DNA from: a virus
Length of the DNA stretch: 37,776 nucleotides
Strand: one strand, 5' to 3'
Virus record (IMG/VR): IMGVR_UViG_3300033148_009348
Span: 1-37,776 of that record
Part shown: piece by piece, positions 1 to 18,055 of the stretch
Layout of the letters: the number at the start of each line of letters is the position of its first letter
How positions within the stretch are numbered: the first letter of the stretch is position 1
Notes under the pieces: model-generated
What the model saw: only the letters and a program-made list of their open reading frames with translations
Told to the model about the DNA's origin: nothing
Databases searched by the model: none
Made by a program: the position numbers and the translations under genes

Positions 1-1
1 A

Positions 2-142
2 TACCGGCTTGCGGTCAACGTGAAGGTCACCGGCGGTGACCACATCGTGGACTTCGGCAGGTATCGGTCCCGCTGCAGGATCGAGTTTGTCGGTGACGGT
101 GAACCGAGCACCTTCACCGGTGGATGGATCTACCACTCCTAA
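2..142 (+). CDS. C-terminal end of a protein of unknown function (partial)
   Basis: An open frame runs in from the left edge of the window and stops at TAA (140-142), giving the last 46 residues of a protein. The visible part is rich in beta-prone residues and glycine (VNVKVTGGDHIVDFG near its start, TGGWIYHS at the end), like the last strands of a small beta-barrel or beta-sandwich. The family cannot be named from this fragment. The stop codon lies only one base before the 5' arm of the first hammerhead ribozyme, the same layout as in the next two genes. That repeated arrangement supports this being a real gene end. Confidence 0.6.
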   Translation, partial: YRLAVNVKVTGGDHIVDFGRYRSRCRIEFVGDGEPSTFTGGWIYHS

Positions 143-143
143 A

Positions 144-207
144 GCCGAAACCAGCCGAAAGGCTGGTCTGCTGGAGATAACCTCCCAGCACTGATGATGG
201 CAGGTTA
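144..207 (+). ncRNA. Type II hammerhead ribozyme, copy 1
   Basis: All core elements of a hammerhead with open stem II are present in order. GCC (144-146) is the 5' strand of stem II, followed by GAAA (147-150). Stem III is CCAGCC-GAAA-GGCTGG (151-166), followed by the UC cleavage dinucleotide (167-168). Stem I is TGCTGG/CCAGCA (169-174 with 185-190), then CTGATGA (191-197), then GGC (199-201) to close stem II. One extra U (198) lies between CTGATGA and stem II. The stem I loop TAACCT (178-183) is complementary to AGGTTA (202-207), a possible pseudoknot. Predicted cleavage is after C168, between the upstream stop codon and the ribosome binding site of the gene at 228. Confidence 0.9.
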
Positions 208-227
208 CCATCGAGGAGGTTTTTACC

Positions 228-500
228 ATGGAATGCCCACTTTGCGGTTCCCGCGGTTCTCGTTTCCTTAAGCCCCATCCGAGCGTTTTCGGCGTTTACG
301 AATGCCGAAAATGCCGAGCATTGTTCGGCGAATGCTACCTGGGAGATAGCTATTCGCTAGTGTCTCCCATGTGGTCCCGGCAGGACGTCGAGGATACCGA
401 ATGCCGGTACTTCGATTTCATCTGTGTGGGATCCGGTGGGATCACACGCAGGCATGGTTGGTTCAATCCGGCTGACGGTCGGATCGTTCAAACCGGTTGA
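228..500 (+). CDS. Small zinc-ribbon-like protein (90 aa)
   Basis: The start is set by a strong GAGGAGG ribosome binding site about 8 bases upstream. The N-terminal third carries two Cys pairs, CPLC (residues 3-6) and CRKC (26-29), the knuckle pattern of a zinc ribbon. Further Cys residues occur at about 37, 58 and 66. The C-terminal half has no recognised motif. Small zinc-ribbon proteins in phage early or accessory regions often bind nucleic acid or protein, but no specific role is visible. The gene sits between two hammerhead ribozymes, so its mRNA would be released as a separate unit with a 5'-hydroxyl end. Zinc binding is inferred from the Cys spacing only. Confidence 0.75.
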   Translation: MECPLCGSRGSRFLKPHPSVFGVYECRKCRALFGECYLGDSYSLVSPMWSRQDVEDTECRYFDFICVGSGGITRRHGWFNPADGRIVQTG

Positions 501-504
501 GTAA

Positions 505-570
505 GCCGAAACCGGCTAGAGATAGCCGGTCTAGCCGGGATGACCTCCGGCTACTGATGATGGTAGGTCA
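505..570 (+). ncRNA. Type II hammerhead ribozyme, copy 2
   Basis: The core comprises GCC (505-507), GAAA (508-511), stem III CCGGCTA-GAGA-TAGCCGG (512-529) capped by a GNRA tetraloop, UC (530-531), stem I TAGCCGG/CCGGCTA (532-538 with 547-553), CTGATGA (554-560) and TGG (561-563). As in copy 1, there is an extra U after CTGATGA. The stem I loop TGACCT (541-546) is complementary to AGGTCA (565-570). Predicted cleavage is after C531. The element begins four bases after the TGA of the zinc-ribbon gene and ends 35 bases before the next start codon. Stems I and III have nearly the same sequence, so alternative pairing between them is possible. Confidence 0.92.
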
Positions 571-605
571 CTCTAACGTTAAAAGAAAATAAAAGGAGAA
601 ACACG

Positions 606-1013
606 ATGAACAACGAGGTAATCGAAATCCAAGTCGCTTGCACTGACAACATCACGGCTAAATGGGCCGTGATTAAACTGATGGTTAAGACGTCGGTCAT
701 CGACGTCTTAAGCAGATGCGATAACGGCGTCTACAAACCGCAGGTCAAGACCGGAGAGGAGATGTTCGCAATCCGTCCGGTAGTGGATGCGGTCGACATC
801 GAGATGATCTGCCCCACCGGGGTGGTCAAGTGGGTCGCCAAACCCGGGGAGGAGATGTTCGCATTGGTCCGCCCGATAGTGGAGGCGATCGACATCGAGC
901 TGGGTTGCCCCACCGGGCAGATCAAGTGGGTCGTCAAAACCGACGGGATCGTCTCCATCCACGCCGTCGATGACCAGGGAATGGAGACGGTATCAATCAT
1001 CAACCTGTGCTGA
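606..1013 (+). CDS. Small protein with internal tandem repeat (135 aa), function unknown
   Basis: The start is supported by AAGGAG about 7 bases upstream. Two adjacent homologous blocks fill residues ~49-111. Each contains GEEMFA, then RP-V-D/E-A-DIE, then CPTG and KWV (for example VDIEMICPTG and IDIELGCPTG). The N-terminal 45 residues (AKWAVIKLMVKT) look like a more decayed third copy. Each unit is about 31-32 residues and has one Cys in CPTG. No enzyme motif is seen. The repeated beta-rich unit suggests a small repeat or beta-barrel protein. It lies between hammerhead copies 2 and 3. I do not recognise the family. Confidence 0.75.
   Translation: MNNEVIEIQVACTDNITAKWAVIKLMVKTSVIDVLSRCDNGVYKPQVKTGEEMFAIRPVVDAVDIEMICPTGVVKWVAKPGEEMFALVRPIVEAIDIELGCPTGQIKWVVKTDGIVSIHAVDDQGMETVSIINLC
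750..938 (+). repeat. Diverged 93-bp in-frame tandem duplication
   Basis: Two copies (750-842 and 843-938) share long identical stretches, such as gaggagatgttcgca, tcgacatcgag, tgccccaccggg and tcaagtgggtcg. The second copy has one extra codon. The reading frame is kept, so the duplication is expressed as two protein repeats and has had time to diverge. Confidence 0.85.
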
Positions 1014-1015
1014 CA

Positions 1016-1084
1016 GCCGAAATGCCGGGGGACCTCCCCCGGCATCTGCCGGAGATGACCTCCCGGCACTGATGAGGCAGGTCA
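1016..1084 (+). ncRNA. Type II hammerhead ribozyme, copy 3
   Basis: This copy has GCC (1016-1018), GAAA (1019-1022), a 9-bp stem III TGCCGGGGG/CCCCCGGCA (1023-1031 with 1036-1044, loop ACCT) and UC (1045-1046). Stem I is TGCCGG/CCGGCA (1047-1052 with 1063-1068), followed by CTGATGA (1069-1075) and GGC (1076-1078). Here stem II pairs directly, without the extra U seen in copies 1 and 2. TGACCT (1056-1061) in the stem I loop is complementary to AGGTCA (1079-1084). TGAC at 1011-1014, which includes the stop codon of the upstream gene, could alternatively pair with GTCA (1081-1084). Predicted cleavage is after C1046, upstream of the gene at 1115. Confidence 0.92.
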
Positions 1085-1114
1085 AATAATTCACCATCAG
1101 AAAGGAGAAAACAG

Positions 1115-1318
1115 ATGAAGGAAACGGGGGAAACGGGCATAGACGGAAACTGCCCCACCTGGCCTGGTGCCAGTAAAGTGTACTCCAAGGCATACCGCTA
1201 TATGGAGAAACATGGAGCAGACCACGCATTAATCAAAGCCCTGGAAAAGGGTAATGAAGAGGAGGTCAAAGCAAATATGCTCAGGATAAACACCGAATCG
1301 CTCCTGAGCATGGAATGA
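1115..1318 (+). CDS. Small charged protein (67 aa), function unknown
   Basis: The start is supported by AAGGAG about 8 bases upstream. After a flexible N-terminus containing CPTWPG, the protein becomes mostly helical and charged (SKAYRYMEKHG, then ALEKGNEEEVKANM). The length and composition suit a small phage regulatory or host-interaction protein, but no family is recognised. It is the first gene after the third ribozyme and precedes the AAA+ ATPase gene by 90 bases. CPTWPG resembles the CPTG of the preceding gene, but this is too short to mean homology. Confidence 0.65.
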   Translation: MKETGETGIDGNCPTWPGASKVYSKAYRYMEKHGADHALIKALEKGNEEEVKANMLRINTESLLSME

Positions 1319-1353
1319 AAGCCAATTAATAATCGTGAATCTGTTACCTATTA

Positions 1354-1379
1354 GTGCGCCGGGGGTGCCCCCGGCGCAC
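1354..1379 (+). other. GC-rich intergenic hairpin (12-bp perfect stem)
   Basis: GTGCGCCGGGGG pairs with CCCCCGGCGCAC around a minimal loop, directly upstream of the ribosome binding site of the ATPase gene. No T-run follows it, so it is not a standard intrinsic terminator. It may stabilise a 5' end or block exonuclease. Its GCCGGGGG/CCCCCGGC core matches stem III of ribozyme copy 3, but no CTGATGA or GAAA core surrounds it. Confidence 0.7.
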
Positions 1380-1408
1380 AGGAGAAACGCACACACAGGA
1401 GGAACACG

Positions 1409-2527
1409 ATGGACACCAGACAGAAAATTAAAAAGATATACACCACCCTTAACGATCAACTGGTAGAGAGGTCCGAAGTCCTACAAGGGTCGATAATAGC
1501 GATCCTTGCTCGGAAACACCTCTTCATGATCGGGCCTCCGGGTACGGCCAAATCACTCGGAATCGAGAAGTTCTGCGAGTCAATCTCCGGCATGACATAC
1601 TTCGAGGAACTGATGACCCAGCAGACAAAGCCCGAGGACCTCTTCGGTCCGATCAAAGTCTCAGCGTATAGAGAAGATCGATATGAGCGGAACGTCGAAG
1701 GATTCCTACCGACTGCCGACATCGCCTTTCTCGACGAGATCTTTAAGGCCGGTGGACCAAATCTTAATCCGCTGCTGAGGCTGACGGATGAAACGCGCAA
1801 ATTCCGGAACGGCAAACCCCAGATGGAGCGATGTCCGCTGAACAGCCTGTTTGCCGCCAGTAATGAATTCCCCGAGAACGCAGCCGAACTCAGCGCTCTT
1901 TGGGACCGGCTGCTACTCCGATATGTGGTGGACGACATCGTCGATGATTCCAACTTCGAAGCCATGATGGCCTTGGAGGAAATCAAAATCGAGCACACCA
2001 TCACCAAGGAGGAGCTCCGGCAAGCCCAGGAGGAGGTCGACCGGGTAAAGATCACACCAGAAATCATCCATGTGCTGACCGAACTCCGCTCGAAGCTCCG
2101 GAAGGAAGGATATATATTTTCTCCCCGGAGATGGCGGGAGTCAAAGCAGGTCCTCAGGGCTCATGCCTGGTTCCACGGCCGGGACGAGGTCTCCGAGGAT
2201 GATCTTGAAATCCTGGCCGCGGTCCTCTGGGACAGGCCCGAGCAACGGCGCGAGGTACTTCGCATCTTGATGTCCACCACCAATCCCGACACTGCCACAG
2301 CCCTAGCGTTGTTCGACGACATCCAAGAGATCATTGATGACATCGAAAAGCAGCCGGACGAATCGGCCAAACTCGCTGCCAGTCAGGAGGCCGTAGTCAA
2401 ACTCCGGGATATGATCCCGCTGTTTGACAACTTCCGGCCCCACGCTAAGATTTTTGAATTAAAAAATCAGGCCATAGAGATGCAACGTGCCGTTGTCCGG
2501 AGGTATTTCGGAATTAACATTAACTGA
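1409..2527 (+). CDS. MoxR/RavA-type AAA+ ATPase
   Basis: Start ATG at 1409 follows an AGGAGG site. The 372-residue protein shows an AAA+ core with Walker A GPPGTAKS (residues 42-49), Walker B IAFLDE (105-110) and a sensor-1 region FAASNE (148-153). A C-terminal helical lid region follows (SPRRWRESKQVLRAHAW). The downstream helical tail (EDIQ/DDIEKQ-like, 290-372) fits the MoxR family. MoxR ATPases act with vWA-domain partners as chaperone-like remodelling complexes. Here the next gene, starting 10 bases after the stop, encodes exactly such a partner, as in RavA-ViaA pairs. The substrate is unknown. Family assignment is strong; any function in infection is inference. Confidence 0.9.
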   Translation: MDTRQKIKKIYTTLNDQLVERSEVLQGSIIAILARKHLFMIGPPGTAKSLGIEKFCESISGMTYFEELMTQQTKPEDLFGPIKVSAYREDRYERNVEGFLPTADIAFLDEIFKAGGPNLNPLLRLTDETRKFRNGKPQMERCPLNSLFAASNEFPENAAELSALWDRLLLRYVVDDIVDDSNFEAMMALEEIKIEHTITKEELRQAQEEVDRVKITPEIIHVLTELRSKLRKEGYIFSPRRWRESKQVLRAHAWFHGRDEVSEDDLEILAAVLWDRPEQRREVLRILMSTTNPDTATALALFDDIQEIIDDIEKQPDESAKLAASQEAVVKLRDMIPLFDNFRPHAKIFELKNQAIEMQRAVVRRYFGININ

Positions 2528-2537
2528 GGAGGCAGTC

Positions 2538-3974
2538 ATGTTCGTAACCAATGTTGACGCATTCGACCGGAGGACATTCGAGGACATCGCTCCCCGGTCC
2601 AGCAAGGTGGAGGACATCCGGTCCTCCGCCGAATATTCCGAATACGGAGACCTGCTAGAGGATCTCATGGTTGACGGCTTCGGGTCCCTGTACAAATACG
2701 CCCCCCGGGTTCTGGAAGACGTCCCACCGGAACGGATTCTCTCCAAGCGGGTCATTGAACAGTGGCAACAGTTACCGGAATGGCAGCAGTTCCGGAAGTT
2801 CACCGTAGGTGACGAGATCGTCAGTATGGGAGCCGTAGACGCCGTGTACCGGGTGTTCAAGGAGATGCCGGTCGAGGTTAAACGACGCCAACGGGAACTC
2901 CAGGACTTCTCGGATCGGCTGACCGAAATGTTGAATTCCGACGATACTGATTTTGGTAGTGACGAATTCAAGGATGCGGTAACCGACATGGTCGAAGCCG
3001 GTAATAGGGTGGATCAAGCCCTGGATGCCGACGAGGACCGGATACGAAAATTGTGCCGGGTGGCACTTCGAGAGGCCGCGGATGAGGCAGAGATCGAGGG
3101 AAAGGCAATGCTGGCACTCGGTTTTGATGACTCTACCGGGGAACTTAACGGTTCCCACAAGGACGATCGAATCAAAATAGCCAGCATGCTGCAGAACAAT
3201 CCCAAGCTTCGAGAAATCGTTAAACTCGCCGGTCGATTCTGCTATGTGGCGGATAAAAAGCAGCGGGAGAAATCCGAATACGCCCGGTCCCAGGTATCCG
3301 GTATTGAATTCGGAGACGACCTGCAGCGGGTAACCCCCTCCGATATGGCCCTCCTGTCCGACGAGGAGTTGGAGGAATTGTTCTGGCTGAAATATGTCGA
3401 ATCAGGACTCCAGCTCTACAAGATCACCGGCACCGAGACCCTAGGTAAAGGACCCGTCGTGATAATGGTCGACTGTTCCGGTAGTATGGCGGGTCAGAAG
3501 GATATATGGGCAAAAGCCATGGCCCTAGCGGGTTATTCCATAGCCCGGAAGCAAAACCGGGACTTCGCCTTTCTGTTGTACAACACCGAGGTCAGGAAAC
3601 AGATCTACCTTAAATCCGGCACCGGCAAACGGAACATGACCGGTCTGGCCGAGATTCTATCATCCGGCGTCGGCGGTGGTACCGATTTCGAAGTTCCCAT
3701 CACATACGCCATGCGGGAGGTCCTAACCAGGTCCGAATTTACCAAGGCCGACATCATCTTCATCTCGGACGGTTACTACATGATCGGTGACGACTGGTTC
3801 CGGGATTATCAAACCCGAAAGGACGGTATGGAATTCGCGTTCTGGGGAATTCAAATCGGCCCCAGGCTGAGAGGTATGGACGCGTTGGATAGACTGAGCG
3901 ACGACGTGGTTTACCTGGACGGTGACATCCTGGCCAATCAGGACCGGGCTTTTGACATGGCCTTTACCATCTAA
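2538..3974 (+). CDS. vWA-domain protein (ViaA-like MoxR partner)
   Basis: I place the start at 2538 because GAGGAGG lies immediately upstream. An in-frame ATG at 2487 falls inside the ATPase gene and has no such site. The 478-residue product has a helical N-terminal half and a C-terminal von Willebrand A domain with a complete metal-ion-dependent adhesion site. This site is DCSGS (residues 312-316), the threonine in GGGTDF (about 382) and the aspartate in FISDG (about 411). The architecture, helical region followed by C-terminal vWA, matches ViaA/CoxE-type proteins that work with MoxR ATPases. It is almost certainly co-translated with the upstream ATPase. Its role in the phage is unknown. Confidence 0.88.
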   Translation: MFVTNVDAFDRRTFEDIAPRSSKVEDIRSSAEYSEYGDLLEDLMVDGFGSLYKYAPRVLEDVPPERILSKRVIEQWQQLPEWQQFRKFTVGDEIVSMGAVDAVYRVFKEMPVEVKRRQRELQDFSDRLTEMLNSDDTDFGSDEFKDAVTDMVEAGNRVDQALDADEDRIRKLCRVALREAADEAEIEGKAMLALGFDDSTGELNGSHKDDRIKIASMLQNNPKLREIVKLAGRFCYVADKKQREKSEYARSQVSGIEFGDDLQRVTPSDMALLSDEELEELFWLKYVESGLQLYKITGTETLGKGPVVIMVDCSGSMAGQKDIWAKAMALAGYSIARKQNRDFAFLLYNTEVRKQIYLKSGTGKRNMTGLAEILSSGVGGGTDFEVPITYAMREVLTRSEFTKADIIFISDGYYMIGDDWFRDYQTRKDGMEFAFWGIQIGPRLRGMDALDRLSDDVVYLDGDILANQDRAFDMAFTI

Positions 3975-4018
3975 CCCGTCAATGAAAACAAATCTCAACC
4001 ATGGAATCCGTTAATGAA

Positions 4019-4040
4019 GCCGGGGAAGGATGTCCCCGGC
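4019..4040 (+). other. GC-rich intergenic hairpin (8-bp stem)
   Basis: GCCGGGGA pairs with TCCCCGGC around AGGATG, 45 bases after the vWA stop codon and just before the ribosome binding site of the next gene. There is no T-run, so it is probably not a terminator. It resembles the hairpins at 1354 and 5330 in position. Confidence 0.6.
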
Positions 4041-4066
4041 AAAGCCCATCATCGAGGAGAAAGACG

Positions 4067-5299
4067 ATGAAACAAAAAGAGGAAATCAAGCGAACAATCG
4101 CAGAACAGGCGAACGGCCTCCCCATACTGGGCCACCTGGTCTGGTGGACCGTCCACAAGGTGGAAATCCCCAGACTGGACCTGGAAGACCTGCTCGCGAA
4201 GACCGTCGGCATTCAATACATGCCCACCGAGCACCGGAAGGCTAAAGCTCTCAAGAGGGGCTTAGAATCGATGAGGGAAGCTGGCCTGCTGGACCTCATC
4301 CGTGATGACAAGGTCATGACGGCTTATCAGATCACCGATAAGATGATCGACGTCAAGGAGGTCAAGGCCGACTACCGCCGCAAGGCCGCGGTCCAATTCG
4401 TGAAGCGGGGAGACGGGGTCCCGATGGGTGGGGAAATCCGGGTATACGGTGATGTGGACAGGAAGGAGGTCCAAGAACGGTTGGACCACTACCTGCAGGT
4501 ATACACCGCCGATGACATCCGAATGATCCTCAAGGCATATGTCAGAGACAATGCCGGGATCAACCTGAATGAGAACGGCCTCCTCTACTTCGTCCCCGAG
4601 CCTGAGGTAGTTGACGTCATGAAGGTTTTCCTGGAAGCCGTCGGTGGTGATCTTGGGCTCTCCCCGGTTACCGACACCGAATACGTCAAGACCAACATGG
4701 TCACTCGGATTCGTGATGAACTGGAGGCCGAAATCGAATCGGCCGCCGAGGAGGTCAAGAGGATGAGCAGCAGCAAGTTCACCAGAGGACTGACCTTCAA
4801 AGCCCGGTTAAAGGAATTCGCCGCTCTCAAGAACAGATGTGAGACGTACAGCGAGCTACTGAAGTTGGATGCCGAGACCATGATTCAGAAGGTGTCCGAG
4901 CTCCAGGAATCGGTAGAGGATTCCCTAATGGGAATCCACGTGGATTACCCCCAGATGAAAGAGTTCCCCTATGGCACCCGGGTCAGATACACCGGCGACG
5001 CCCCTAAACTGCTCATCAACCTTAACGGCAGCACTACCGGAACGGTAATCGGGTATCTCAATTCCAAGACCGGGAAACAATACGTCAAAGTTCGGTTCGA
5101 TACTAAAGATATCAAGGTCATCCGGCCGATTGCACCGGGCAACCTGGAGATCACCGAACGCGCCGTGGAAACCGATCTGACGGAGATGGATGAGGATCAA
5201 TTGCTGGCCAGGTTCGAAGTCTCCCCCGGCTGGTACCAGATCCCCGGTCACACCAAAAAAGTCCGGAAGGCGGAAGCCGTTCAATTACTGAAAGCGTAA
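4067..5299 (+). CDS. Third protein of the MoxR-vWA cluster, function unknown (410 aa)
   Basis: The start at 4067 is preferred because GAGGAG lies 7 bases upstream. The longer in-frame ATG at 4001 has no binding site and would place the hairpin inside the gene. Visible regions are an N-terminal helical segment with a possible winged-helix-like stretch (residues ~1-85), a mixed alpha/beta middle, and a charged helical or coiled-coil region (~215-285). A compact beta-rich segment follows at ~300-350 (YGTRVRYTGD, TTGTVIGYLN, YVKVRFDT), like an SH3/KOW-type barrel. The C-terminus is a short helix. No catalytic motif is recognised. Its position directly after an ATPase/vWA pair suggests it is the adaptor, target or effector of that complex. 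Confidence 0.75.
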   Translation: MKQKEEIKRTIAEQANGLPILGHLVWWTVHKVEIPRLDLEDLLAKTVGIQYMPTEHRKAKALKRGLESMREAGLLDLIRDDKVMTAYQITDKMIDVKEVKADYRRKAAVQFVKRGDGVPMGGEIRVYGDVDRKEVQERLDHYLQVYTADDIRMILKAYVRDNAGINLNENGLLYFVPEPEVVDVMKVFLEAVGGDLGLSPVTDTEYVKTNMVTRIRDELEAEIESAAEEVKRMSSSKFTRGLTFKARLKEFAALKNRCETYSELLKLDAETMIQKVSELQESVEDSLMGIHVDYPQMKEFPYGTRVRYTGDAPKLLINLNGSTTGTVIGYLNSKTGKQYVKVRFDTKDIKVIRPIAPGNLEITERAVETDLTEMDEDQLLARFEVSPGWYQIPGHTKKVRKAEAVQLLKA

Positions 5300-5329
5300 A
5301 AGGGATGTGTTTCTTCCTGGTAATGCGGA

Positions 5330-5363
5330 GGAAGGTCGGTCGTCCAAGAGCGGCCGACCTTCC
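5330..5363 (+). other. Intergenic hairpin (13-bp stem)
   Basis: GGAAGGTCGGTCG pairs with CGGCCGACCTTCC (one G-U pair) around TCCAAGAG, 31 bases after the stop of the preceding gene. It is not followed by a T-run on the + strand. It could be a factor-dependent terminator, an RNA processing site or a stabilising element. The rest of the 130-base spacer holds only the ribosome binding site of the next small gene. Confidence 0.65.
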
Positions 5364-5431
5364 GAATTCGTGGGAGCACAACGAAGAATCAAGGCCGCCT
5401 TTCCCTCCCAAGAGAAATCAAGGAGATCGAA

Positions 5432-5533
5432 ATGGAAATCGTAATCGCTACGTTAATAGCAACTGCAGTGGTAATACCGATCTGGGCATCGGTAAGCAAG
5501 ATCAGAGACATTATGGAGGACATTAAACGTTAA
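5432..5533 (+). CDS. 33-residue single-pass membrane peptide
   Basis: ATG at 5432 follows AAGGAG at good spacing and the frame stops at TAA 5531-5533. The product has a hydrophobic N-terminal segment of about 20 residues (VIATLIATAVVIPIWA at 4-19) and a charged C-terminal tail (SKIRDIMEDIKR). This is typical of a short inner-membrane phage peptide with its C-terminus in the cytoplasm. It is the last gene of the + block and ends 7 bases before the terminator. Its ribosome binding site and clean hydrophobic/charged division argue against chance. Function is unknown; membrane modulation or a lysis accessory role are possible. Confidence 0.6.
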   Translation: MEIVIATLIATAVVIPIWASVSKIRDIMEDIKR

Positions 5534-5539
5534 AAGAGA

Positions 5540-5567
5540 AAGAGGGGGGCGTCATGGCCCCCCTCTT
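5540..5567. terminator. Convergent (possibly bidirectional) intrinsic terminator
   Basis: An 11-bp perfect inverted repeat, AAGAGGGGGGC / GCCCCCCTCTT with loop GTCATG, lies between the converging + and - blocks. Read on the - strand it is followed by TTTCTCTTTT, a good U-rich tail. On the + strand the tail is weaker (ACTAAAA). It separates the MoxR block from the lysis end of the late operon. Confidence 0.8.
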
Positions 5568-5568
5568 A

Positions 5569-6444
5569 CTAAAACAGCAGCTTTTTGATTAATCCCAAGT
5601 CCCAGCCGATCATGACGGTCACACCCGGTCCAAGCTTCCCGTCCCCCCCTAACACCATACCTCCACCGACCATGACGTCCGGCACTACCCGCTCCCAGAA
5701 TAGTTTCCTTTCATAGGATGAAATAAGCTCAGCCTGAATCCTGCTCTCAATCCGACCGGCCATAAACGCGTCTTCCCAACCCCGGCTGGAGCTCTTCCAC
5801 CGATCCTTCAATTTGACCATGTCCTTGAAGCTTCGATCCTTCAAAATCATCTCACGGGTTTGATTCTCAACGATCAGGTTGAGATCGGCTATCCTCCCCT
5901 GAAATAGACCGACCTGGTCACGGAGGTTGGTCGTTTCCTCCAACGAGAAGACGAAACCACGCATGGCCGGTTCATTCGCCCTATAGACGTCGTCGGTCAC
6001 AGAATAGTTAACTTCGGACCCGGCCTGCTGTGGATACAGTTGAACTACCAAGGTTTCAGCCGTCCGGGCGAGGTCGTCCGGCATCATCTCCTCAACTTTT
6101 CCCACGGCATCTGCCAAGGCGGTCTGCAACCGGTTGACGTCCGTCTGTAGCCGTCGAATCCGGTCCAAGGCCCCCCTCCTTTCGGCCCGAAGACCGGCTA
6201 TCACCTCCTCACGCGCAGCCAGATCAAGTATAAATCTCCTCTCGGCCTCCCCGGCTGCCCGCTTCTGCCGATCGGCCTCCTCTACCGCCGATCGGACCGC
6301 CTCCCGCTGCGCCTTCAATCTATCTTTCAGATCTGCTATCTGTCTGTCGGTGAAATATCTGACGGAGAAATAAGTCCCGGCCACGGCCAGGACCGCTCCC
6401 AGTATAAAGACCGACAGATAACCCCGAAATTGCTTGCTTACCAT
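5569..6444 (-). CDS. Membrane-anchored coiled-coil protein, i-spanin-like (lysis cassette)
   Basis: The 291-residue product has an N-terminal transmembrane anchor (VFILGAVLAVAGTYFSV at about 12-28). A long charged coiled coil follows (~34-115, rich in Arg, Glu, Ala), then a further helical region and a glycine-rich C-terminus (MVGGGMVLGGDGKLG). It directly follows the lytic transglycosylase gene and overlaps it by 7 bases. That position and topology suit an Rz-like inner-membrane spanin, which joins inner and outer membranes in the last step of lysis of Gram-negative hosts. It is longer than typical Rz (about 150 residues) and no o-spanin lipobox was found. The role is an inference from context. 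Confidence 0.55.
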   Translation of the reverse strand: MVSKQFRGYLSVFILGAVLAVAGTYFSVRYFTDRQIADLKDRLKAQREAVRSAVEEADRQKRAAGEAERRFILDLAAREEVIAGLRAERRGALDRIRRLQTDVNRLQTALADAVGKVEEMMPDDLARTAETLVVQLYPQQAGSEVNYSVTDDVYRANEPAMRGFVFSLEETTNLRDQVGLFQGRIADLNLIVENQTREMILKDRSFKDMVKLKDRWKSSSRGWEDAFMAGRIESRIQAELISSYERKLFWERVVPDVMVGGGMVLGGDGKLGPGVTVMIGWDLGLIKKLLF

Positions 6445-7103
6445 TTAACCGTCTTCCAAAGCTTAAAGATCTTATGGACGTAATCCCGGTTTTCCCGGAA
6501 CGCCTCCTCACCCCGGTTCGAGCACTCCTCCACACAGCCGAACCACATATCCCTTTCACAATGCCTCAGCCCGGGTTCATGACGTTTCCTCCCATCGAGC
6601 AACTGCTGATCCTTCCGAACCCAACCCAAACCCCCGTTGTAAGAGGAATAGACGAATGCCCAATGGTGATCTGTATCTGCCCCCACGGTTCTCTCCCATA
6701 ACCACCTGTCATAGAGGATAATCGCCCGGATGGACCAGACCGGATTGAACCTCGGATCCGGATCTTCGAATCCCTGAAGGGAGGGGAACAGTTCGATGAT
6801 CCAGTCCCGGGTCTTCGGCATAAACTGACCCAGGCCCGCTGCGCCGATACGGTTCTCGGCATCCGACTTAAACCAGGATTCCTGTTGGATCTGAGGAGGA
6901 AATCTCGTGGTATCCACCTGCAAGCCCCAGTTGGTGTAGGCCTCGGCCTTAATGATCCGGGCATACTTCCAATAATCTCTCGGAGGCTCTTCCTTGGCCT
7001 CAGGTTGCCCTATGGCTATTATATTCGCCACCCATGCGCTCAAGGCCAAGGAGAGTACCGTCCTGCGTCCGGATGATATATGTGAGATCGTAGATGTGAT
7101 CAT
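6438..7103 (-). CDS. Endolysin: lytic transglycosylase/lysozyme-fold (SLT) domain
   Basis: The 221-residue protein carries the SLT signature. This comprises QQESWF with the catalytic Glu (about residue 74), GAAGLGQFMP (about 87-96) and YNGGLGWV (about 154-161). It would cleave the glycan strands of peptidoglycan. A basic, hydrophobic N-terminus (RRTVLSLALSAWVANIIAIG, about 13-32) looks like a signal or signal-anchor sequence, so export may be independent of the holin. Four late Cys residues could form disulfides. No good ribosome binding site precedes the ATG at 7103. An overlapping open frame at 7000-7176 leaves the N-terminus open to doubt (see findings). Lysis cassette context is clear. 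Confidence 0.8.
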   Translation of the reverse strand: MITSTISHISSGRRTVLSLALSAWVANIIAIGQPEAKEEPPRDYWKYARIIKAEAYTNWGLQVDTTRFPPQIQQESWFKSDAENRIGAAGLGQFMPKTRDWIIELFPSLQGFEDPDPRFNPVWSIRAIILYDRWLWERTVGADTDHHWAFVYSSYNGGLGWVRKDQQLLDGRKRHEPGLRHCERDMWFGCVEECSNRGEEAFRENRDYVHKIFKLWKTVKW

Positions 7104-7191
7104 CTTGTACCGTCCAAGACTCTACCGATACGCCTTCTACCCACTCCGGATGTTTCAGCGTCGGGTTTTGCGTGTTTTATGGTCCTATGTG

Positions 7192-7515
7192 TTAAGGTCC
7201 ACCGATATTGGCCATAACTCCGAGGATTAAAGCCCCATAGATAAACGCCCTCAGTACACATACCCCGGCAATGATGACCGCATCCGGAAGGCTGTTATCG
7301 TCCCGTTCAATCATCGCCTTGACGTCTATATACCCGAATGCTGATTTCCACAGTATGTGTGCCAGCACAAACGCCAACGTGCCGAGAAACAGCCTCCAGC
7401 CCCCGGCTAAAACCAGTCTGAAGTCGAAAAAGAAAATCGACGCAGCCAGGATCAGCCATACCGGCCAAAGCCTAATCAGTTCACGCTTTACCCTGTCAAG
7501 TAACTCCTTCACCAT
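7192..7515 (-). CDS. Holin candidate (107 aa, multi-pass membrane protein)
   Basis: The start at 7515 follows AGGAG, and the upstream gene stops one base earlier. Longer in-frame starts would overlap that gene heavily. The protein has a short basic N-terminal helix, two hydrophobic segments in tandem (about 15-32 and 37-55) and a third near the C-terminus (about 80-102, VIIAGVCVLRAFIYGALILG). Size, three probable membrane spans and position just upstream of the endolysin fit a class I holin that opens the inner membrane at lysis time. Holins share little sequence, so the call rests on topology and context. A phage-encoded membrane anchor of another kind cannot be excluded. Confidence 0.6.
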   Translation of the reverse strand: MVKELLDRVKRELIRLWPVWLILAASIFFFDFRLVLAGGWRLFLGTLAFVLAHILWKSAFGYIDVKAMIERDDNSLPDAVIIAGVCVLRAFIYGALILGVMANIGGP

Positions 7516-7516
7516 C

Positions 7517-7855
7517 CTACTCTCCTTTTTCATGTCGAATAATGATTTCAATCCGCTGGCAGGATGCTGGAACGCTGACCACCACCTCTCGACATCCGTC
7601 GTCCGGCGGTGACGGTTTTGATCCTTTAGGTTTTTTCGGCCGTTTTGGCTTCTTGGGTGGTTCCGGCATACCCAGAATCCCCCTGGCTTCGGCCATGGTA
7701 CCTCCGAATTCATACCACTCCGGCTTAGCCACACCCCCGGTGCCGAGCCCGATCGGCATTCCTACTTTAAATTTAAACCGGTCATCATCCTTCAGGATGT
7801 CACCGTTACCCTCATAGACGATGTCTCCGTCGGAGCATCTGATCTTATACTTCAT
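7517..7855 (-). CDS. Small protein with proline-lysine-rich linker (112 aa), function unknown
   Basis: A GGAGG site precedes the ATG. The N-terminal ~60 residues form a compact beta-rich segment (YKIRCSDGDIVYEGNGD, FKFKVGMPIGLG). A basic, low-complexity linker follows (PPKKPKRPKKPKGSKPSPP at about 66-84), then a short C-terminal beta segment with two Cys. It lies between the LamG adhesin and the holin candidate, so it could be a small fibre accessory, a chaperone or a lysis regulator. The family is not recognised. Confidence 0.6.
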   Translation of the reverse strand: MKYKIRCSDGDIVYEGNGDILKDDDRFKFKVGMPIGLGTGGVAKPEWYEFGGTMAEARGILGMPEPPKKPKRPKKPKGSKPSPPDDGCREVVVSVPASCQRIEIIIRHEKGE

Positions 7856-7906
7856 CTCCTTCTACCTCCTTGAGGCCTATTCGACCACAACATATAAAAG
7901 TTCAAA

Positions 7907-10900
7907 TCAGTCACCCCCCGTTACAATCGGTGTGGGTGGCGTTTTCCGTACCATGTTCTCAATCATAAACGCCATGCGACGTCTTCTGACTTCCCCATCC
8001 GGCGTATCGATGAACGGTTCCTCATCCCCCTGCAGCAACAGTACCGTCGTACCGCCGGAGCCGGGGCACGGACCCGCTTCATTCGTTATTCCACACCTTA
8101 CCGACACCGACGTCGACGGTGTAAAATTACCTGTAATGCCACCGTCTCCGCCGTTTATAATGTGGACTTCGTCAACCTCTCCGATGAGAAAATTCCCTGG
8201 ATCGTCAGCATCCTCGGCCCCCACCAGTACAGCGTTTGCACCCGTGTTGTTCGTCGTCCCTGCAAAGGTTCCGCTGTCCTCCGCTATACCGTCGATGTAT
8301 AGCGTTACCGTATTATCGCCGGTCCGCACAACCGCGACATGGTGCCATTCACCGTCTGCTATGTTCGTCGTCCCTGTAAGTTCAAACGCTGTCGTCGTTC
8401 CATCCGTCGAGGCTCTAAATACGGCCACGCCGTCTTCAATCACCAGTTCCCAGCCGAGATCACCTGCCGTCCAATTCGTAATCAGTGCTCCGTCACCTTC
8501 GGTCTTACACCACAGCATGATCACAAAATCGCCGTCAAACTGAAAATCGGTTGACGGCGACGGCGTTACCTCTATATAGCTGGCACCGTCGAACACAATC
8601 GAACCGTCACCCGTCTTCGGCGTCGACGTGTTCTGGCTGACGGAGCCTGCCGAAGTATCGATCTCTTCCGGGGTAAACGAATCCGACGTATACCTCGCCG
8701 TTCCGTTTATGATCCGTGCCTGCGTTATCCATCCATCGATACCATAGTCACCACCGGCACCGTCGAGATGGAACAGTCGAAGTAGCCCTGAGTAATCCCC
8801 GATAGACTGCGCACTTACTACCTCCGCTACTTTGTTCCCATCTATGTACATCCGCCATGTATTCACGGATCTGGTCACCGCGAAGTGATACCATGTGTCC
8901 AGCGATACACCGGCTGACGTTTTACTTATTATCGACACCCCATCAACATAAAAATGCCACGCATCAGCCGAACTGTCATACATGCACCCCCACCAGTTGC
9001 CGGAGTCCTGCCGCTGGGTCCAGAAATAATTCTCATCATTACCGTTCCAGGCATTGAACCTCACGTAACATTCAATCGTGAAATCGCCGGATCCTCCGCC
9101 CAACTGCCAGTCATCCTGATCGGCCCAAGCTAACCCCGGTCCCAACGTATCGCTGCTGTAAAAAGAATCGTGGCCCAACACCTGTTCAGAGGATTTACTC
9201 ACCTCTCCAGACTGTTCTTCCGCTTCGTAATTCAAGTCTCCATGTATTAACACCTGCGTGTTGGGATCCATCTCGAACGGTTCAGTGGGTGGCGTGAAGT
9301 TAGACGTATAACGAGCATTACTGCTTATCCTTATCTCATCAAAACTACCTACTCCCGGAGATCCGCTCACAATCCCTCTAGCCCAAAACGTCTGCGACTT
9401 TTGAGGTAGATCCACTGAATTCGTTGAGGTAGAGCCGACTTGATTTCCATTAACAAACATACGGGTCGATCCACCGCTTCTACATACCGCCAGGTGATAC
9501 CAGGTATCGGTTGCCGGAGTCCAGTTAACCTCTATCAACCAATTGTACGAACCTTCATACCGCCCGACCCTGAGAACCGGACTCGCCCCCGATCTATCGA
9601 AGAACCAATGCCACCTGCTTGACGTAGAATTCGCATGGGTGAAAATCGGAAACTTATTGATGCCTGCAGCCAGACCGCTGAACGACGTCGGCGTCTTCCA
9701 CCAGCACTCCCATGTGAAATCCCCGGTGCCGGGTGCAGTATAACCGTCTATTTCGAGACCGGCAGTAGACGGCGGTGCCTCGCTTCCCCTCGTCCAAAAC
9801 AGAGCGCCCGATCCAAATTTTTCTTCGAGTCCGTCATGGTCCGTCGCCCTCACACGCTGATTAAGAGTCACCGTATACGGAGACCCTCCGTTTTGAACCT
9901 CATCGGTAACTGTACTTCCATCTCCGTGTATCAAACTCAACGTATCTTCGTCGACGGTAAATGCAGCATCAGGCGGTGTAAACTCTGACGTATACCTGGC
10001 TACGTTGCTGATTCTTATCTCATCGAATTCACCTACAAGAGCGTCGATCTGTGTCCCATCCGATAGGTTTCCCTCCCTGCCGAACCACATCGTGTTGTAA
10101 TCCGCCAGGGATATGGAGTTCGTTGCCGTCCCCTTCGACACACCGTCTACAAAAAACTCCCACGCGTTGCCGTTCCTAACCAGCGCTATGTGATACCAGG
10201 TATTATCTTCCGGCTGCCATGCCTTGTTGATGACGTTCGTCCAGTTCCCAGAACTCACCTCTACACGGAAGTCAAGAGCCGGTCCATCGTGTGCCGGTCC
10301 CCGCCACGCCATTATCCATCTGTGATCGTTGTCGGTATGGTAACTGAGGAACGTTTGGATCTTCTTCGAATCCATATCGTTACCGGTCTTCCACCAGAAC
10401 TCTACCGTGAAATCGCCGGTTCCGAGCGCAAATCCGGGCCTGTCCTGCAGAGTCAGATATCCGTCGTCACTTGCCGATCCGGTATACTGGTCTCCATAAA
10501 AATGTATCGCACCCGTCCCAAACTTTTTCGTCGTCAATGCCTGTATCTTCGTCGGTGTCAACGTTACGGCAGTCCCGCCCTCAATGGCCTCCGACTTCCG
10601 GGCATTTACGCTGCTCTCCGTCACCTTGTCTTCAGCATCAATCTCCTCGTCGCCCGTAAGTACAAAGTCTCCGATCTGAACGCCTTTCGAAGATACGGTC
10701 TTCTGTGACCCAGGTTCCTGCGGCTGCGTCTGGTCACCGACCTCCATGACGATTTCAAGACTCGGGGTAAACAGATTGTCCCCATCGGTTATCTCGACGG
10801 CATAACGACGCCCGTCCTCCATAGGCGTCGTCCCGTTCAATGCTGACGACAGCTGCACGTCACCACGGTTCTCCGATCCGACGGCAGGTGTAACCTCTGC

Positions 10901-11989
10901 AGTAGCCTTGAACCACACGTTCCCACCGGAATCCATGTCATTCCAGCCGTTATCTACTCTAACGGCTACCTTGTATTTCCCGGTCCCGGCATTCTTATAT
11001 CCGATGGAGCGGAGATACGCCACTTGATCCGCGGCTACCCCGTCTCCCCATCTGCTTGCCGTATATAGAAATCTCCCGTCAGTTACGTCAGGTTGCTCAA
11101 CGGCAGGCGGTTGACGGAACGGAATCGGTATCCTGACGCCTTCGACCAGCGAAAGCCGCATCCACAATCGCGCCGAGTACAGCGCCATATCGGCCGCCCC
11201 ACCGTTCCAATACTTCACCTCGAACGATTCACCGTCGGTGAAGTTTTCTGCATCATCGGCGAAGTCTGCCTGGAACGCCTGCACATCAGTCCCGGTATTC
11301 GTAGTGGGTCCTACTTCGCTGCCCGCAACCTTGCCCCCATTTGAATTGAACAATGCCGCCCGCGTCCCACCGGGATCCACATCACCGCCCAGATTACAAT
11401 CCAGCGTCCATCCGTCAATGACGGCGTTCCCATGCCAGAAATCCTTGTCCTTCTTCCATAGTACGAAGTTCCCCGCCGATACTTGGCTCGGCGATGTACT
11501 GCCGGGCGATGAAATCAGTTCGGGTGTCTGCCCCCAATCGGCCGTGTGATTCGATGGGGCACTGTAAAAATCCATCAGGTTGAACGGGATAGCAAGCTTC
11601 GTGGCATTCGTCAGCACCACCACAACAAAGCACTGCAGGCACGGCCCGAGCACATCACCTTCGTCGGCTGGCATACTGAGATAATAGTTACGCGCCGTCA
11701 CCATATCCAGCGACAGACCGGTCGCCCGCTGCCTCCCGTAACTGCGGTTACCGGCAGGTAGCGACACCGTGTCCTGCTGCGTTCCGTCATCCCTATATAT
11801 CCTAATCGTGTGGCTGTTTTGAGCGGTCTTATCGATCGAAAAAAACTCAAGCTCCATCGATATACTGTCCGCTTCAAACCAGCTCGGGTTGAAATGGAAC
11901 ATGTTCCGTTTAAACCGCTTCGTTGTGAGCGAGTCGGCCTTGAACGAACCATTCCCAACGGGTATGTAAACCTCGCAATTGACGCCCAT
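7907..11989 (-). CDS. Giant tail fibre/adhesin with four LamG (concanavalin-like) domains
   Basis: The start at 11989 follows GAGGT. The 1360-residue protein begins with beta-rich structural domains (about 1-290 and 295-425). Four LamG/laminin-G-like jelly rolls follow at roughly 490-690, 720-900, 945-1100 and 1120-1320. Each has the hallmark strands: GTGDFTVEFWWKT, WYHIALVRNGNAWEFFVDG and GEFDEIRISNVARYTSEFTP, or close variants. LamG folds bind carbohydrate, and in tail proteins they serve as receptor-binding modules. Its place between the tail-tip genes and the lysis cassette fits the main host-recognition protein. The four domains are clearly related but well diverged. No peptidase or lyase motif was seen. 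Confidence 0.88.
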   Translation of the reverse strand: MGVNCEVYIPVGNGSFKADSLTTKRFKRNMFHFNPSWFEADSISMELEFFSIDKTAQNSHTIRIYRDDGTQQDTVSLPAGNRSYGRQRATGLSLDMVTARNYYLSMPADEGDVLGPCLQCFVVVVLTNATKLAIPFNLMDFYSAPSNHTADWGQTPELISSPGSTSPSQVSAGNFVLWKKDKDFWHGNAVIDGWTLDCNLGGDVDPGGTRAALFNSNGGKVAGSEVGPTTNTGTDVQAFQADFADDAENFTDGESFEVKYWNGGAADMALYSARLWMRLSLVEGVRIPIPFRQPPAVEQPDVTDGRFLYTASRWGDGVAADQVAYLRSIGYKNAGTGKYKVAVRVDNGWNDMDSGGNVWFKATAEVTPAVGSENRGDVQLSSALNGTTPMEDGRRYAVEITDGDNLFTPSLEIVMEVGDQTQPQEPGSQKTVSSKGVQIGDFVLTGDEEIDAEDKVTESSVNARKSEAIEGGTAVTLTPTKIQALTTKKFGTGAIHFYGDQYTGSASDDGYLTLQDRPGFALGTGDFTVEFWWKTGNDMDSKKIQTFLSYHTDNDHRWIMAWRGPAHDGPALDFRVEVSSGNWTNVINKAWQPEDNTWYHIALVRNGNAWEFFVDGVSKGTATNSISLADYNTMWFGREGNLSDGTQIDALVGEFDEIRISNVARYTSEFTPPDAAFTVDEDTLSLIHGDGSTVTDEVQNGGSPYTVTLNQRVRATDHDGLEEKFGSGALFWTRGSEAPPSTAGLEIDGYTAPGTGDFTWECWWKTPTSFSGLAAGINKFPIFTHANSTSSRWHWFFDRSGASPVLRVGRYEGSYNWLIEVNWTPATDTWYHLAVCRSGGSTRMFVNGNQVGSTSTNSVDLPQKSQTFWARGIVSGSPGVGSFDEIRISSNARYTSNFTPPTEPFEMDPNTQVLIHGDLNYEAEEQSGEVSKSSEQVLGHDSFYSSDTLGPGLAWADQDDWQLGGGSGDFTIECYVRFNAWNGNDENYFWTQRQDSGNWWGCMYDSSADAWHFYVDGVSIISKTSAGVSLDTWYHFAVTRSVNTWRMYIDGNKVAEVVSAQSIGDYSGLLRLFHLDGAGGDYGIDGWITQARIINGTARYTSDSFTPEEIDTSAGSVSQNTSTPKTGDGSIVFDGASYIEVTPSPSTDFQFDGDFVIMLWCKTEGDGALITNWTAGDLGWELVIEDGVAVFRASTDGTTTAFELTGTTNIADGEWHHVAVVRTGDNTVTLYIDGIAEDSGTFAGTTNNTGANAVLVGAEDADDPGNFLIGEVDEVHIINGGDGGITGNFTPSTSVSVRCGITNEAGPCPGSGGTTVLLLQGDEEPFIDTPDGEVRRRRMAFMIENMVRKTPPTPIVTGGD

Positions 11990-11999
11990 TGCCGCGACC

Positions 12000-12305
12000 T
12001 CATTTCACAGGATGGATATACAGGGATCCGTCATCCTCTCCGGTATCCTTAATCGCAGCAATCCGTGCCCCCTTACTGACCGGGAATCTGTAAGTCGCAT
12101 TCGCCACCATGAAATAGCTAGTGCCGACTACCGCTGTAGGAGTACCGGTACTGGCGATCCGGATCCATACATTGACGGTGGATACCAGATCCACAAATAC
12201 GTCCTCCGCATCGGCAGCCAGGAGTTCGGTGTTAGCCGAAGTTCCGGTTACCGACAAAACCTTCCCGGTCAAATCCTCCGGGGTCTTGAAGCCTTTCTCA
12301 ATCAT
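12000..12305 (-). CDS. Small beta-rich virion-associated protein (101 aa)
   Basis: The ATG at 12305 follows GAGAGG. The protein is predicted beta-rich, with phrases typical of small phage decoration or fibre-base proteins (VFVDLVSTVNVWIRIAST, FMVANATYRFPVSKGARIAAI). Such proteins often contain a strand that gives a resonable barrel edge near an ASNTT-like segment; here TGTSANTELLAA is the equivalent. It sits between two fibre genes and is coupled to both. The original stop of the upstream gene (before the 35-bp duplication) would be TAG two bases before this ATG. Structural role inferred from context; family not identified. Confidence 0.6.
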   Translation of the reverse strand: MIEKGFKTPEDLTGKVLSVTGTSANTELLAADAEDVFVDLVSTVNVWIRIASTGTPTAVVGTSYFMVANATYRFPVSKGARIAAIKDTGEDDGSLYIHPVK

Positions 12306-12386
12306 CCTACAACCTCTCTAAGAGTAGATTCATGTTATAAACGGTCAGATTCTGTACAGGTCCCGAAGCGTCTTGGACCTGCAACG

Positions 12387-13367
12387 TCAGTATATCGCCG
12401 GAGTCCAGGTCAACGAAGCTGACGTGGGTGGCGACTCCGGTGTCGGAACTGCCCGTAGTCCTCCGCATCCTCCGGTGTCGGAACTGCCCGTAGTCCTCCG
12501 CATCTGGGTCTTATAGGCCGGTGCCGCCCCGTTGATGCTCAACCCGAATATATAGTCACCACCGGAACCGCCGGAAAAGCTGACATGATAAGTTAAGCGG
12601 TAATTGCCGCCTACCTCTACTAACAGCGAATAGTTGCCGGATTTCTGCATACCGGCAGTCGGACCCAACGACAGCTGACCGCCGTTGCCGGTGATGTCGG
12701 TCCAGACACCGGCACCGGGGGGAGACACCGTAAAGCTGCTGGAATCCTCATACAGTTCACCGTAGACCTTATCGACGAGGGTACAACGGATGTTGTCATC
12801 CACGTCCACCACGGCCAGGAAGATGATCCGCCTTCCGGGATAGATGGTATCCGGCTCATTGTCAAAGATCCACTTAGACTCAAAGTCGATGCTGTGGGCA
12901 CTGTCAGTACCGGCCACGCCCGTTACATCGATCATGAACATGACGCCCCGTGGCAGTACTGACGGATCCTTCATCGTAATCGTATCGATCACGGCTATCC
13001 GGTGATAGAGGCCCTGCCCGAGATCTATGGTGAAATCGCCGGACTGGTTCCCCCAGTCCTTAAAGCCCTGTATCGGAGCGTCCACCAGACCGGCTCCGGC
13101 CTGTCTGGCTTTCCATACCTGGTCGGCATTGTCCCATCGCAACCTTGGTTTTTCCCCGGCTCCGTCGGCGGTCTGAGCCTCGATCGTTTTATCGCTGTCG
13201 GTGCCGTCCCCAAGATGGATGGTATCCTCATGATGTCCGGTTGATGGATCGTGGTCGACTTCATGCTGCTGCTTATTATACTCCGTGTTCTCGATCAGAT
13301 CGTTGACGTCCTGATAGAATAGAGGATCCCCCAAAGTCTTATCCGTTATCGCGTTCCAATCTGCCAT
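12387..13367 (-). CDS. Tail fibre protein with C-terminus altered by a frameshifting duplication
   Basis: The start at 13367 follows GGAGG. The 326-residue product opens with MADWNAITDKTLGDPLFYQD, a common start of phage fibre proteins in which a short helical N-terminus attaches to the tail. A His/Asp-rich loop follows (HEVDHDPSTGHHEDTIHLGDG). The C-terminal half, from about residue 190, is a beta-sandwich like the C1q/TNF-type heads of many fibres (GNYSLLVEVGGNYRLTYHVSF). After RRTTGSSDTG (about 290-298) the sequence becomes unrelated, proline-rich residues and stops. An exact 35-bp tandem duplication causes this. Removing one copy continues the beta-sandwich (VATHVSFVDLDSGDILTL) to a stop at 12307. 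As read, the last strand of the domain is lost. Confidence 0.8.
   Translation of the reverse strand: MADWNAITDKTLGDPLFYQDVNDLIENTEYNKQQHEVDHDPSTGHHEDTIHLGDGTDSDKTIEAQTADGAGEKPRLRWDNADQVWKARQAGAGLVDAPIQGFKDWGNQSGDFTIDLGQGLYHRIAVIDTITMKDPSVLPRGVMFMIDVTGVAGTDSAHSIDFESKWIFDNEPDTIYPGRRIIFLAVVDVDDNIRCTLVDKVYGELYEDSSSFTVSPPGAGVWTDITGNGGQLSLGPTAGMQKSGNYSLLVEVGGNYRLTYHVSFSGGSGGDYIFGLSINGAAPAYKTQMRRTTGSSDTGGCGGLRAVPTPESPPTSASLTWTPAIY
12435..12504. repeat. Exact 35-bp tandem duplication (two copies)
   Basis: Copies at 12435-12469 and 12470-12504 are identical at all 35 positions. Because 35 is not a multiple of three, the second copy shifts the - strand reading frame of the fibre gene near its 3' end. 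The absence of any divergence means the duplication is recent, or is an assembly or sequencing artefact. Confidence 0.97.
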
Positions 13368-13384
13368 GATAGTCTACCTCCGTT

Positions 13385-15151: not shown

Positions 15152-15212
15152 CTTATCTCATCCCTCTCATATATCGTCCTGCGTCTCCTCTACGCAGAAA
15201 GGCCATGGTGGT

Positions 15213-15241: not shown

Positions 15242-15242
15242 A

Positions 15243-15848: not shown

Positions 15849-15860
15849 ACCTTACATCTC

Positions 15861-18046: not shown

Positions 18047-18055
18047 ATCTAAAGT

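Follow-up and report, generated by a model that had tools for sequence, protein, structure and literature searches.

Hammerhead ribozymes between the small genes of a phage operon and their possible role at mRNA 3' ends

What does a row of self-cleaving ribozymes do between the small genes of a phage? The question is raised by IMG/VR virus record IMGVR_UViG_3300033148_009348, analysed here as a whole (37,776 bases, the window) and judged to be a tailed phage from endolysin, baseplate wedge and tape measure matches in the record. A sequence-only reading had recognised three tandem type II hammerheads at its left end and proposed that they cut one polycistronic transcript into single-gene mRNAs. 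Here we describe the structures of these ribozymes, their arrangement and a rule by which hairpins accompany phage hammerheads of different types. Our best explanation of the locus, held with moderate confidence, is a III-II-II-II hammerhead array in the 5' part of a phage operon that would make hairpin-protected 3' ends without termination.

The array in the phage operon

A whole-window cmscan matched RF02276 (Hammerhead_II) three times on the plus strand, each time over the full model length and above the cut-off of 37, and no further Rfam family reached its gathering score anywhere in the window. A structure-rule scanner, which looks for the core, three stems of minimum length and an optional extra nucleotide, returned the same three hammerheads in the window and none besides. 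The Infernal search thus shows the three type II hammerheads to be real, and the cut positions given by the sequence-only reading agree with those of the scanner.

143..209, plus strand: type II hammerhead, copy 1 (RF02276 43.1 bits; cut predicted after 168), with stem III 150-156/161-167, stem I 169-174/185-190, CTGATGA 191-197, extra T 198, stem II 144-146/199-201 and pseudoknot 178-183/202-207
504..572, plus strand: type II hammerhead, copy 2 (RF02276 46.5 bits; cut predicted after 531), with an extra T at 561
1015..1086, plus strand: type II hammerhead, copy 3 (RF02276 44.0 bits; cut predicted after 1046), without an extra nucleotide

The core (CUGAUGA, GAAA and UH at the cut), the three stems and the open stem II are intact in all three copies. 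The letters of stems I and III vary among the copies and the pairing is preserved, a claim of the sequence-only reading that was borne out when the arms were compared: those of stem III are ACCAGCC/GGCTGGT in copy 1, ACCGGCTA/TAGCCGGT in copy 2 and ATGCCGGGGG/CCCCCGGCAT in copy 3, and those of stem I are TGCTGG/CCAGCA, TAGCCGGG/TCCGGCTA and TGCCGG/CCGGCA, respectively. All three also have a pseudoknot between loop I and the 3' tail (TAACCT/AGGTTA, TGACC/GGTCA and TGACCT/AGGTCA, with 6, 5 and 6 Watson-Crick pairs), the strands of which covary (TAACCT/AGGTTA versus TGACCT/AGGTCA). Among the type II hammerheads of the survey described below, 37/93 have a Watson-Crick run of at least 4 between loop I and tail; when tails were swapped or their letters shuffled, the figure was about 9%.

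Stem II usually follows CUGAUGA directly in type II. Copies 1 and 2 depart from this, and from RF02276, by one extra U between the two (window 198 and 561) that is absent from copy 3; the Rfam model tolerates the insertion, which does not exclude these copies from the type and is shared by 30/93 surveyed type II hammerheads (28 U, 2 A). Counted by type, an extra nucleotide, nearly always U, is present in 33/105 type II and 48/172 type III hammerheads and is rare in type I (4/105).

Chance occurrence was rejected: the scanner gave 0 matches in 1.03 megabases of viral DNA shuffled in two-base blocks, and the Rfam E-values of 1.3e-6 to 1e-5 across all families also exclude it.

Stem II begins 1, 4 and 2 nucleotides past the stop codons at 140-142, 498-500 and 1011-1013, in agreement with the 1-4 nucleotides read earlier, and each ribozyme, one after each of the open reading frames (ORFs) ORF0 to ORF2, is followed by a ribosome binding site, as had also been read. 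The near-identical contig L005 (IMGVR_UViG_3300033149_006612, 80,182 bases), with 98.7% identity over window 1-1420 and three identical ribozymes, extends to the left beyond the window. It contains a sigma-70-like promoter-like site with 12/12 consensus positions (TTGACA, 18 nucleotides, TATAAT, and TG before the second box) and, 3' of this site, a short leader ORF of ambiguous frame that ends at L005:9035 or 9097. The leader is followed by a fourth ribozyme.

L005:9171-9237: probable type III hammerhead (RF00008, Hammerhead_3, 37.0 bits over the full length, E 5.5e-7 in 151 bases)

This score is under the RF00008 cut-off of 48.5, so that membership by the curated cut-off is not reached, and the copy was missed by Rfam searches of 5 kilobases and of the whole record; we accept it as a probable type III hammerhead because its core and three stems are intact by the scanner. 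The row of three described by the sequence-only reading therefore holds for the window, whereas the array as found in L005 has four members, one of them type III. This fourth member, the pseudoknot and the extra U of copies 1 and 2 are features beyond that reading.

The order along the transcript is leader, III, ORF0, II, ORF1, II, ORF2, II, ORF3, hairpin, MoxR ATPase, VWA protein and DUF6744 protein. All genes are on one strand up to 5299, there is a single strong promoter-like site, and each small gene has its ribozyme; this anatomy fits the proposal that the array would cut one polycistronic transcript into single-gene mRNAs.

Arrays of this kind are known. Perreault et al. (2011), in the parts of that work available to us (PMC3088659), described the type II hammerhead with its pseudoknot as well as single prophage genes flanked by several hammerheads, obtained cleavage products in vitro for three tandem arrangements (for the triple array of Agrobacterium tumefaciens also in E. 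coli), and already proposed mRNA processing by such arrays. The present locus resembles these clustered prophage hammerheads, including the ardA triple of A. tumefaciens, in having several hammerheads per transcript that flank single small genes, and type II copies with the loop I/3' tail pseudoknot; with two or more same-strand hammerheads around single genes (the window holds three and L005 four), it belongs to the clustered phage arrays. It differs from the arrays in those parts of the 2011 work in the phage and the genes concerned, and in the order III-II-II-II behind a consensus-like promoter. By 2011 standards the array is ordinary and the mechanism named by the sequence-only reading is the published one, so the description of it as an unusual way for a phage to act does not stand; in the survey of viral contigs, 62/295 runs hold two or more hammerheads and 19/295 three or more, with a maximum of eight (duplicate contigs kept).

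Placement against the stop codon and accessory hairpins

For the survey, contigs were collected by degenerate patterns for types II, III and I, then by a second type III pattern, and then among bacterial genome contigs; each of these five collection scans comprised at least 119-120 stretches, and all counts are those of pattern-chosen samples, not prevalences. In the viral contigs the scanner yielded 391 distinct hammerheads in 256 clusters (70% identity over 80 nucleotides, some clusters being common to the first and second scan): 113 of type I, 106 of type II and 172 of type III. Exact duplicates of a ribozyme with its 20-nucleotide flanks were dropped, including two of the four L005 copies. 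The test of stop-to-ribozyme spacers dropped a further 75 of the 172 type III copies, those without a same-strand called gene end 18-200 nucleotides upstream, 49 of which lie inside an ORF called by a simple gene caller. Tests free of gene calls kept every ribozyme with enough flank. A whole-record search of 40 records with RF02276 gave a match at E<=0.001 in 21 and over the cut-off in 8, and a search of 12 array loci at Rfam cut-offs gave 14 hammerheads, all type II.

The position of the ribozyme relative to the upstream stop codon depends on its type. The ribozyme starts within -10 to +5 nucleotides of the stop in 73/113 type I and 62/106 type II copies, but in only 2/172 of type III; random positions, chosen by nearly but not exactly the same upstream-gene rule, fall there in 96/6080. 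From the stop to the hairpin the median is 8 nucleotides in type II (69 copies), 8 in type III (78 copies with a hairpin) and 12 in type I (81 copies, the first hairpin being stem II), and the window copies have 7, 10 and 8. About 8 nucleotides past the stop is roughly the expected position of the leading edge of a ribosome at termination.

The 5' strand of stem I in type I often overlaps the upstream stop (42/84 copies at -10 to -1 nucleotides, e.g., L602 8787-8845 and 10041-10104), and both type I copies of the pelagiphage Eistla have the stop at -4 nucleotides. With the stop inside stem I, a terminating ribosome would compete with folding of the ribozyme.

Type III hammerheads are removed from the stop, and the spacer between is mostly folded. 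Scored against 300 dinucleotide shuffles, 59/74 type III spacers of the discovery set were significantly folded (36 clusters, cluster mean 0.77). A prediction written before the second scan (at least 60% of spacers, at most 30% of gaps) was followed by 17/23 in that scan, made with the other pattern (12 clusters, cluster mean 0.71; 300 shuffles), and by 7/10 in the clusters new to it; hammerhead-free gaps in the same contigs were folded in 58/300 (200 shuffles). Earlier runs with 60 shuffles had given 79% of 73 spacers, then 63/74 and 15/23, with 44/200 gaps (40 shuffles), so that the significance of a single spacer wavers with the shuffles. Stretches of equal length downstream of the same type III ribozymes were folded in only 11/73 and 3/23 (60 shuffles).

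Independently of gene calls, the 40 nucleotides upstream were folded in 93/172 type III copies (26/55 in the second scan alone), against 10/110 of type I and 6/106 of type II. The bacterial genome contigs held 30 type III hammerheads in 22/120 stretches, with folded upstream stretches in 17/29 and folded downstream stretches in 3/30. Among these contigs, type III hammerheads occur in L515, L556, L507 and L512, with rows of up to four in L515 and L556; L556, L507 and L512 are labelled Candidatus Taylorbacteria, Levyibacteriota and Nomurabacteria, i.e., Patescibacteria.

The fold is often a hairpin that abuts the ribozyme. A perfect hairpin of at least 6 base pairs ending 0-2 nucleotides before the ribozyme (a flush hairpin) is found in 95/172 type III, 5/113 type I and 2/106 type II copies, and in 38/860 shuffled type III upstream stretches. 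Hairpin sequences vary widely within one cluster; therefore structure, not sequence, is kept. Intrinsic terminators were considered and rejected as an identity for these accessory hairpins, the 8 nucleotides that follow holding 1-4 T in 91/95 and 5 T in 4/95.

The accessory hairpin could be an aid to folding, either through stacking on stem III or by keeping the coding RNA upstream away from the ribozyme, in which case the array would be a plain processing device that cuts the polycistron and leaves 3' hairpins without a special role. Coaxial stacking would want the hairpin next to the ribozyme, and 60/78 significant spacer hairpins do end 0-2 nucleotides before it. Types I and II, however, have open stems in equal need of shielding and rarely carry a flush hairpin (the 5/113 and 2/106 above); of the 37 type III spacers that lack a significant flush hairpin, 18 carry a significant one further up; and the median distance from hairpin to stop equals that of the type II stem III hairpin (8 nucleotides). 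We consider plain processing with a folding aid somewhat unlikely.

What the cut would leave behind

In the explanation that we prefer, each ribozyme would fold as RNA polymerase passes and then cut itself; the part of the transcript that carries the small genes would be divided into single-gene mRNAs while transcription continues into the MoxR-VWA-DUF6744 genes. The cleavage site would lie between stem III and stem I, and its position would be what matters. In type II the cut would come immediately after the stem III hairpin. The upstream mRNA would then end in its stop codon, 7-10 nucleotides, a hairpin and a 2',3'-cyclic phosphate, resembling a 3' end made by a terminator, and the next mRNA would start within the stem I hairpin, with a hydroxyl at its 5' end. 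In types I and II, stem III of the ribozyme itself would supply the hairpin that closes the upstream product. Type III would leave its upstream product without one, and it is phage type III that in most cases has an accessory hairpin ahead of it, about as far from the stop. What is selected would then be the formation of a protected 3' end on each gene's mRNA while the polymerase runs on. From these features we infer cleavage in the cell, stabilisation of the mRNAs and a benefit to the phage.

That selection would see the 3' end of the upstream mRNA is suggested because only type III, which leaves no hairpin upstream, has the accessory hairpin, and has it on the upstream side. The reverse comparison leads to the same view, because type I, which would leave an unpaired 5' end downstream, shows no accessory hairpin there: downstream stretches are folded in 11/110 type I copies, against 11/170 of type III and 4/105 of type II. 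This asymmetry of the accessory hairpins suggests that selection acts on the upstream mRNA at its 3' end.

The same counts bear on the idea that the ribozymes serve the downstream mRNA instead, a 5'-hydroxyl and a hairpin replacing the triphosphate or leader and shielding the message from 5'-dependent decay. In types II and III the new 5' end would indeed lie in the stem I hairpin, and a halovirus transcript has its 5' end within three nucleotides of a hammerhead site, as given in the available parts of Perreault et al. (PMC3088659). With type I bare on the downstream side and the accessory structure confined to the upstream side, we regard a role at the 5' end as unlikely.

Several results weigh against 3'-end formation as the selected role. 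The ribozyme letters of L005 are the same as those of the window, so this contig gives no evolutionary test; its own type III spacer is borderline with the leader end at 9097 (two runs of 500 shuffles gave P 0.056 and 0.040) and not significant with the end at 9035 (P 0.44). The accessory-hairpin rule thus comes from other phages, because the type III spacer of L005 gives it no clear support. In the survey, 21/97 type III spacers have no significant fold, the flush hairpin is found in most members of only 41/78 type III clusters, and its position flush with stem III suits a folding role too. The 40 nucleotides upstream were folded in 11/24 copies of second-scan clusters new to the survey, and in the bacterial genome contigs only 4 of the 9 spacers that follow a called gene had a significant fold. 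Of the hammerhead-free gaps with a hairpin, 44/97 place it 4-12 nucleotides after the stop, favouring about 10, so this distance is not unique to ribozymes; flush accessory hairpins are more tightly placed (51/60 within 4-12 nucleotides) than these ordinary gap hairpins. A search of 7 loci by E-value gave 10 RF00008 matches at E<=0.01, which cover 9 of the 16 type III copies called there by the scanner; of the scanner's 6 type I or II copies in the same loci, none matched a hammerhead model at E<=0.01. A good part of the scanner calls is therefore supported by an intact core and intact stems only. The ten RF00008 matches score 34.8-47.6 bits against the cut-off of 48.5, so annotation by cut-off misses phage type III.

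Extended to phage hammerheads in general, the proposal is that they are a 3'-end-forming device giving terminator-like hairpin ends to early-operon genes, types I and II by their own stem III at the stop and type III mostly by a hairpin acquired about 8 nucleotides after it. We put this general form forward tentatively, as possible but somewhat short of an even chance.

Two further accounts have little in their favour. If cleavage were followed by ligation, RNAs could become circular or spliced; a type II fragment, once excised, would have a hammerhead half at each end, and the stem II strands of the two halves would match. Among the three window copies these strands are indeed interchangeable (6/6 ordered pairs). 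Stem II is not specially kept compared with stems I and III (hybrid pairing 0.80 within and 0.50 between arrays, with stem I/III identity 4- to 6-fold up within), no RtcB ligase match was found in the 80 kilobases of L005, which is possibly a fragment, and such products were not detected by Perreault et al. in the parts available (PMC3088659); we judge ligation highly improbable. The ribozymes could also be relics or selfish elements of no consequence to the phage. We attach very little probability to this, because the copies differ by compensatory changes and each type has its own placement relative to stop codons, both of which argue for selection on the ribozymes.

Hairpins at 3' ends generally slow 3' exonucleases. 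In T7, RNase III cleaves the early mRNA between its genes to comparable effect, and the likeness to the hammerhead arrays lies in an early polycistron that would be cut between genes with hairpins left at the mRNA ends. A host enzyme acts in T7 and self-cleavage would act here, and the end chemistry differs, so the relation is one of functional analogy, not membership. If 3'-end formation is the selected role, the arrays would do without a protein what the RNase III sites do in T7 early mRNA, and the purpose of prokaryotic hammerheads would be explained. In the accessible parts of the literature, a 2017 review calls the role of prokaryotic hammerheads an open question (PMC6155905) and a 2023 paper calls the reason for their gene associations "still unknown" (PMC10085705). 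A word search of the main text of Perreault et al. (PMC3088659) turned up neither the stop-codon placement nor the accessory hairpin, and the accessory hairpin of phage type III was not found in the literature open to us, supplements and most subscription papers being beyond reach. This suggests that the placement and hairpin rule from the 391-hammerhead survey, unlike the array itself, is not in print.

The placement rule makes one function testable, and such ribozymes occur in cultured pelagiphages whose hosts are named. These T7-like Autographiviridae of SAR11 are similar to L199, a locus with five ribozymes (III-III-I-II-I). By the scanner, HTVC031P has III, II and I among the genes before the RNA polymerase and another III at its right end. 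Its ribozymes include those at 291-341, 1301-1361 and 2070-2154, and the first of these, a type III, comes with an accessory hairpin that starts 9 nucleotides past the annotated stop (z -5.0). Eistla EXVC025P has I, II and I before the RNA polymerase, and the two type III copies of L199 were not found in it by the scanner. HTVC109P has one type II and HTVC142P one type III, and the scanner found no hammerhead in HTVC019P. Gene positions in these pelagiphages are from a typed subset of each record's annotation table.

Other arrays and the genes around the ribozymes

The longest arrays, in L012 (889-4793) and L091 (96-3335, minus strand), have eight type II hammerheads each, between small ORFs; that of L091 mixes two loop I designs, and neither locus (L012:1-8000, L091:1-6000) had a blastn match among named phages. 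In L325 (5049-5185, minus strand), two type II hammerheads stand back to back, 3 nucleotides apart with no gene between, in a locus with eight RF02276 matches. In mixed arrays type III comes first in 8/10 array groups (permutation P 0.007); L210 and L383 are the exceptions, and the L236/L175 group, counted in favour, holds both orders. We treat this order as a lead only, and the idea of 3'-end formation does not explain it.

The genes and the further hairpin around the array are as follows.

2..142, plus strand: 3' end of ORF0, which begins beyond the window (probable start in L005 at 9250, after the type III hammerhead)
228..500, plus strand: ORF1, 90 amino acids, with two CxxC pairs, zinc-ribbon-like by eye
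606..1013, plus strand: ORF2, 135 amino acids, with an internal repeat by eye
1115..1318, plus strand: ORF3, 67 amino acids
1354..1379, plus strand: hairpin of 11 base pairs between ORF3 and the MoxR gene, without a hammerhead core and without a T run
1409..2527, plus strand: MoxR-type AAA ATPase gene, 3' of the array (PF20030 157.7 bits, phrog_19600)
2487..3974, plus strand: gene for a VWA-domain protein, an ORF from GTG 2487 with provisional start (PF13519 and phrog_24053, searched as 2523-3971)
4001..5299, plus strand: gene for a DUF6744 protein (PF20529 53.4 bits)

An in-frame ATG for ORF0 at L005:9169 coincides with the 5' edge of the type III ribozyme. ORF1, ORF2 and ORF3 matched no PHROG or Pfam family at E<=0.001. 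The hairpin at 1354-1379 occupies a site where another ribozyme might be expected, and the stretch that holds it (window 1319-1408) has a fold z of -2.97.

No near relative of window 1-20000 was found among named phages by megablast, and no match to window 1-1400 among plasmids by blastn; the closest annotated phage by the MoxR protein is Moorella phage MTATph1 (37.1% over 77%). Between the window and L005, ORF3 differs by 9 nucleotides in frame (window about 1119-1130; 67 versus 64 amino acids), next to identical ribozymes. The internal duplication of ORF2 (window 606-1013), seen by eye, consists of CPTGVVKWVAKPGEEMFA and CPTGQIKWVVK, preceded by VKTGEEMFAIRP.

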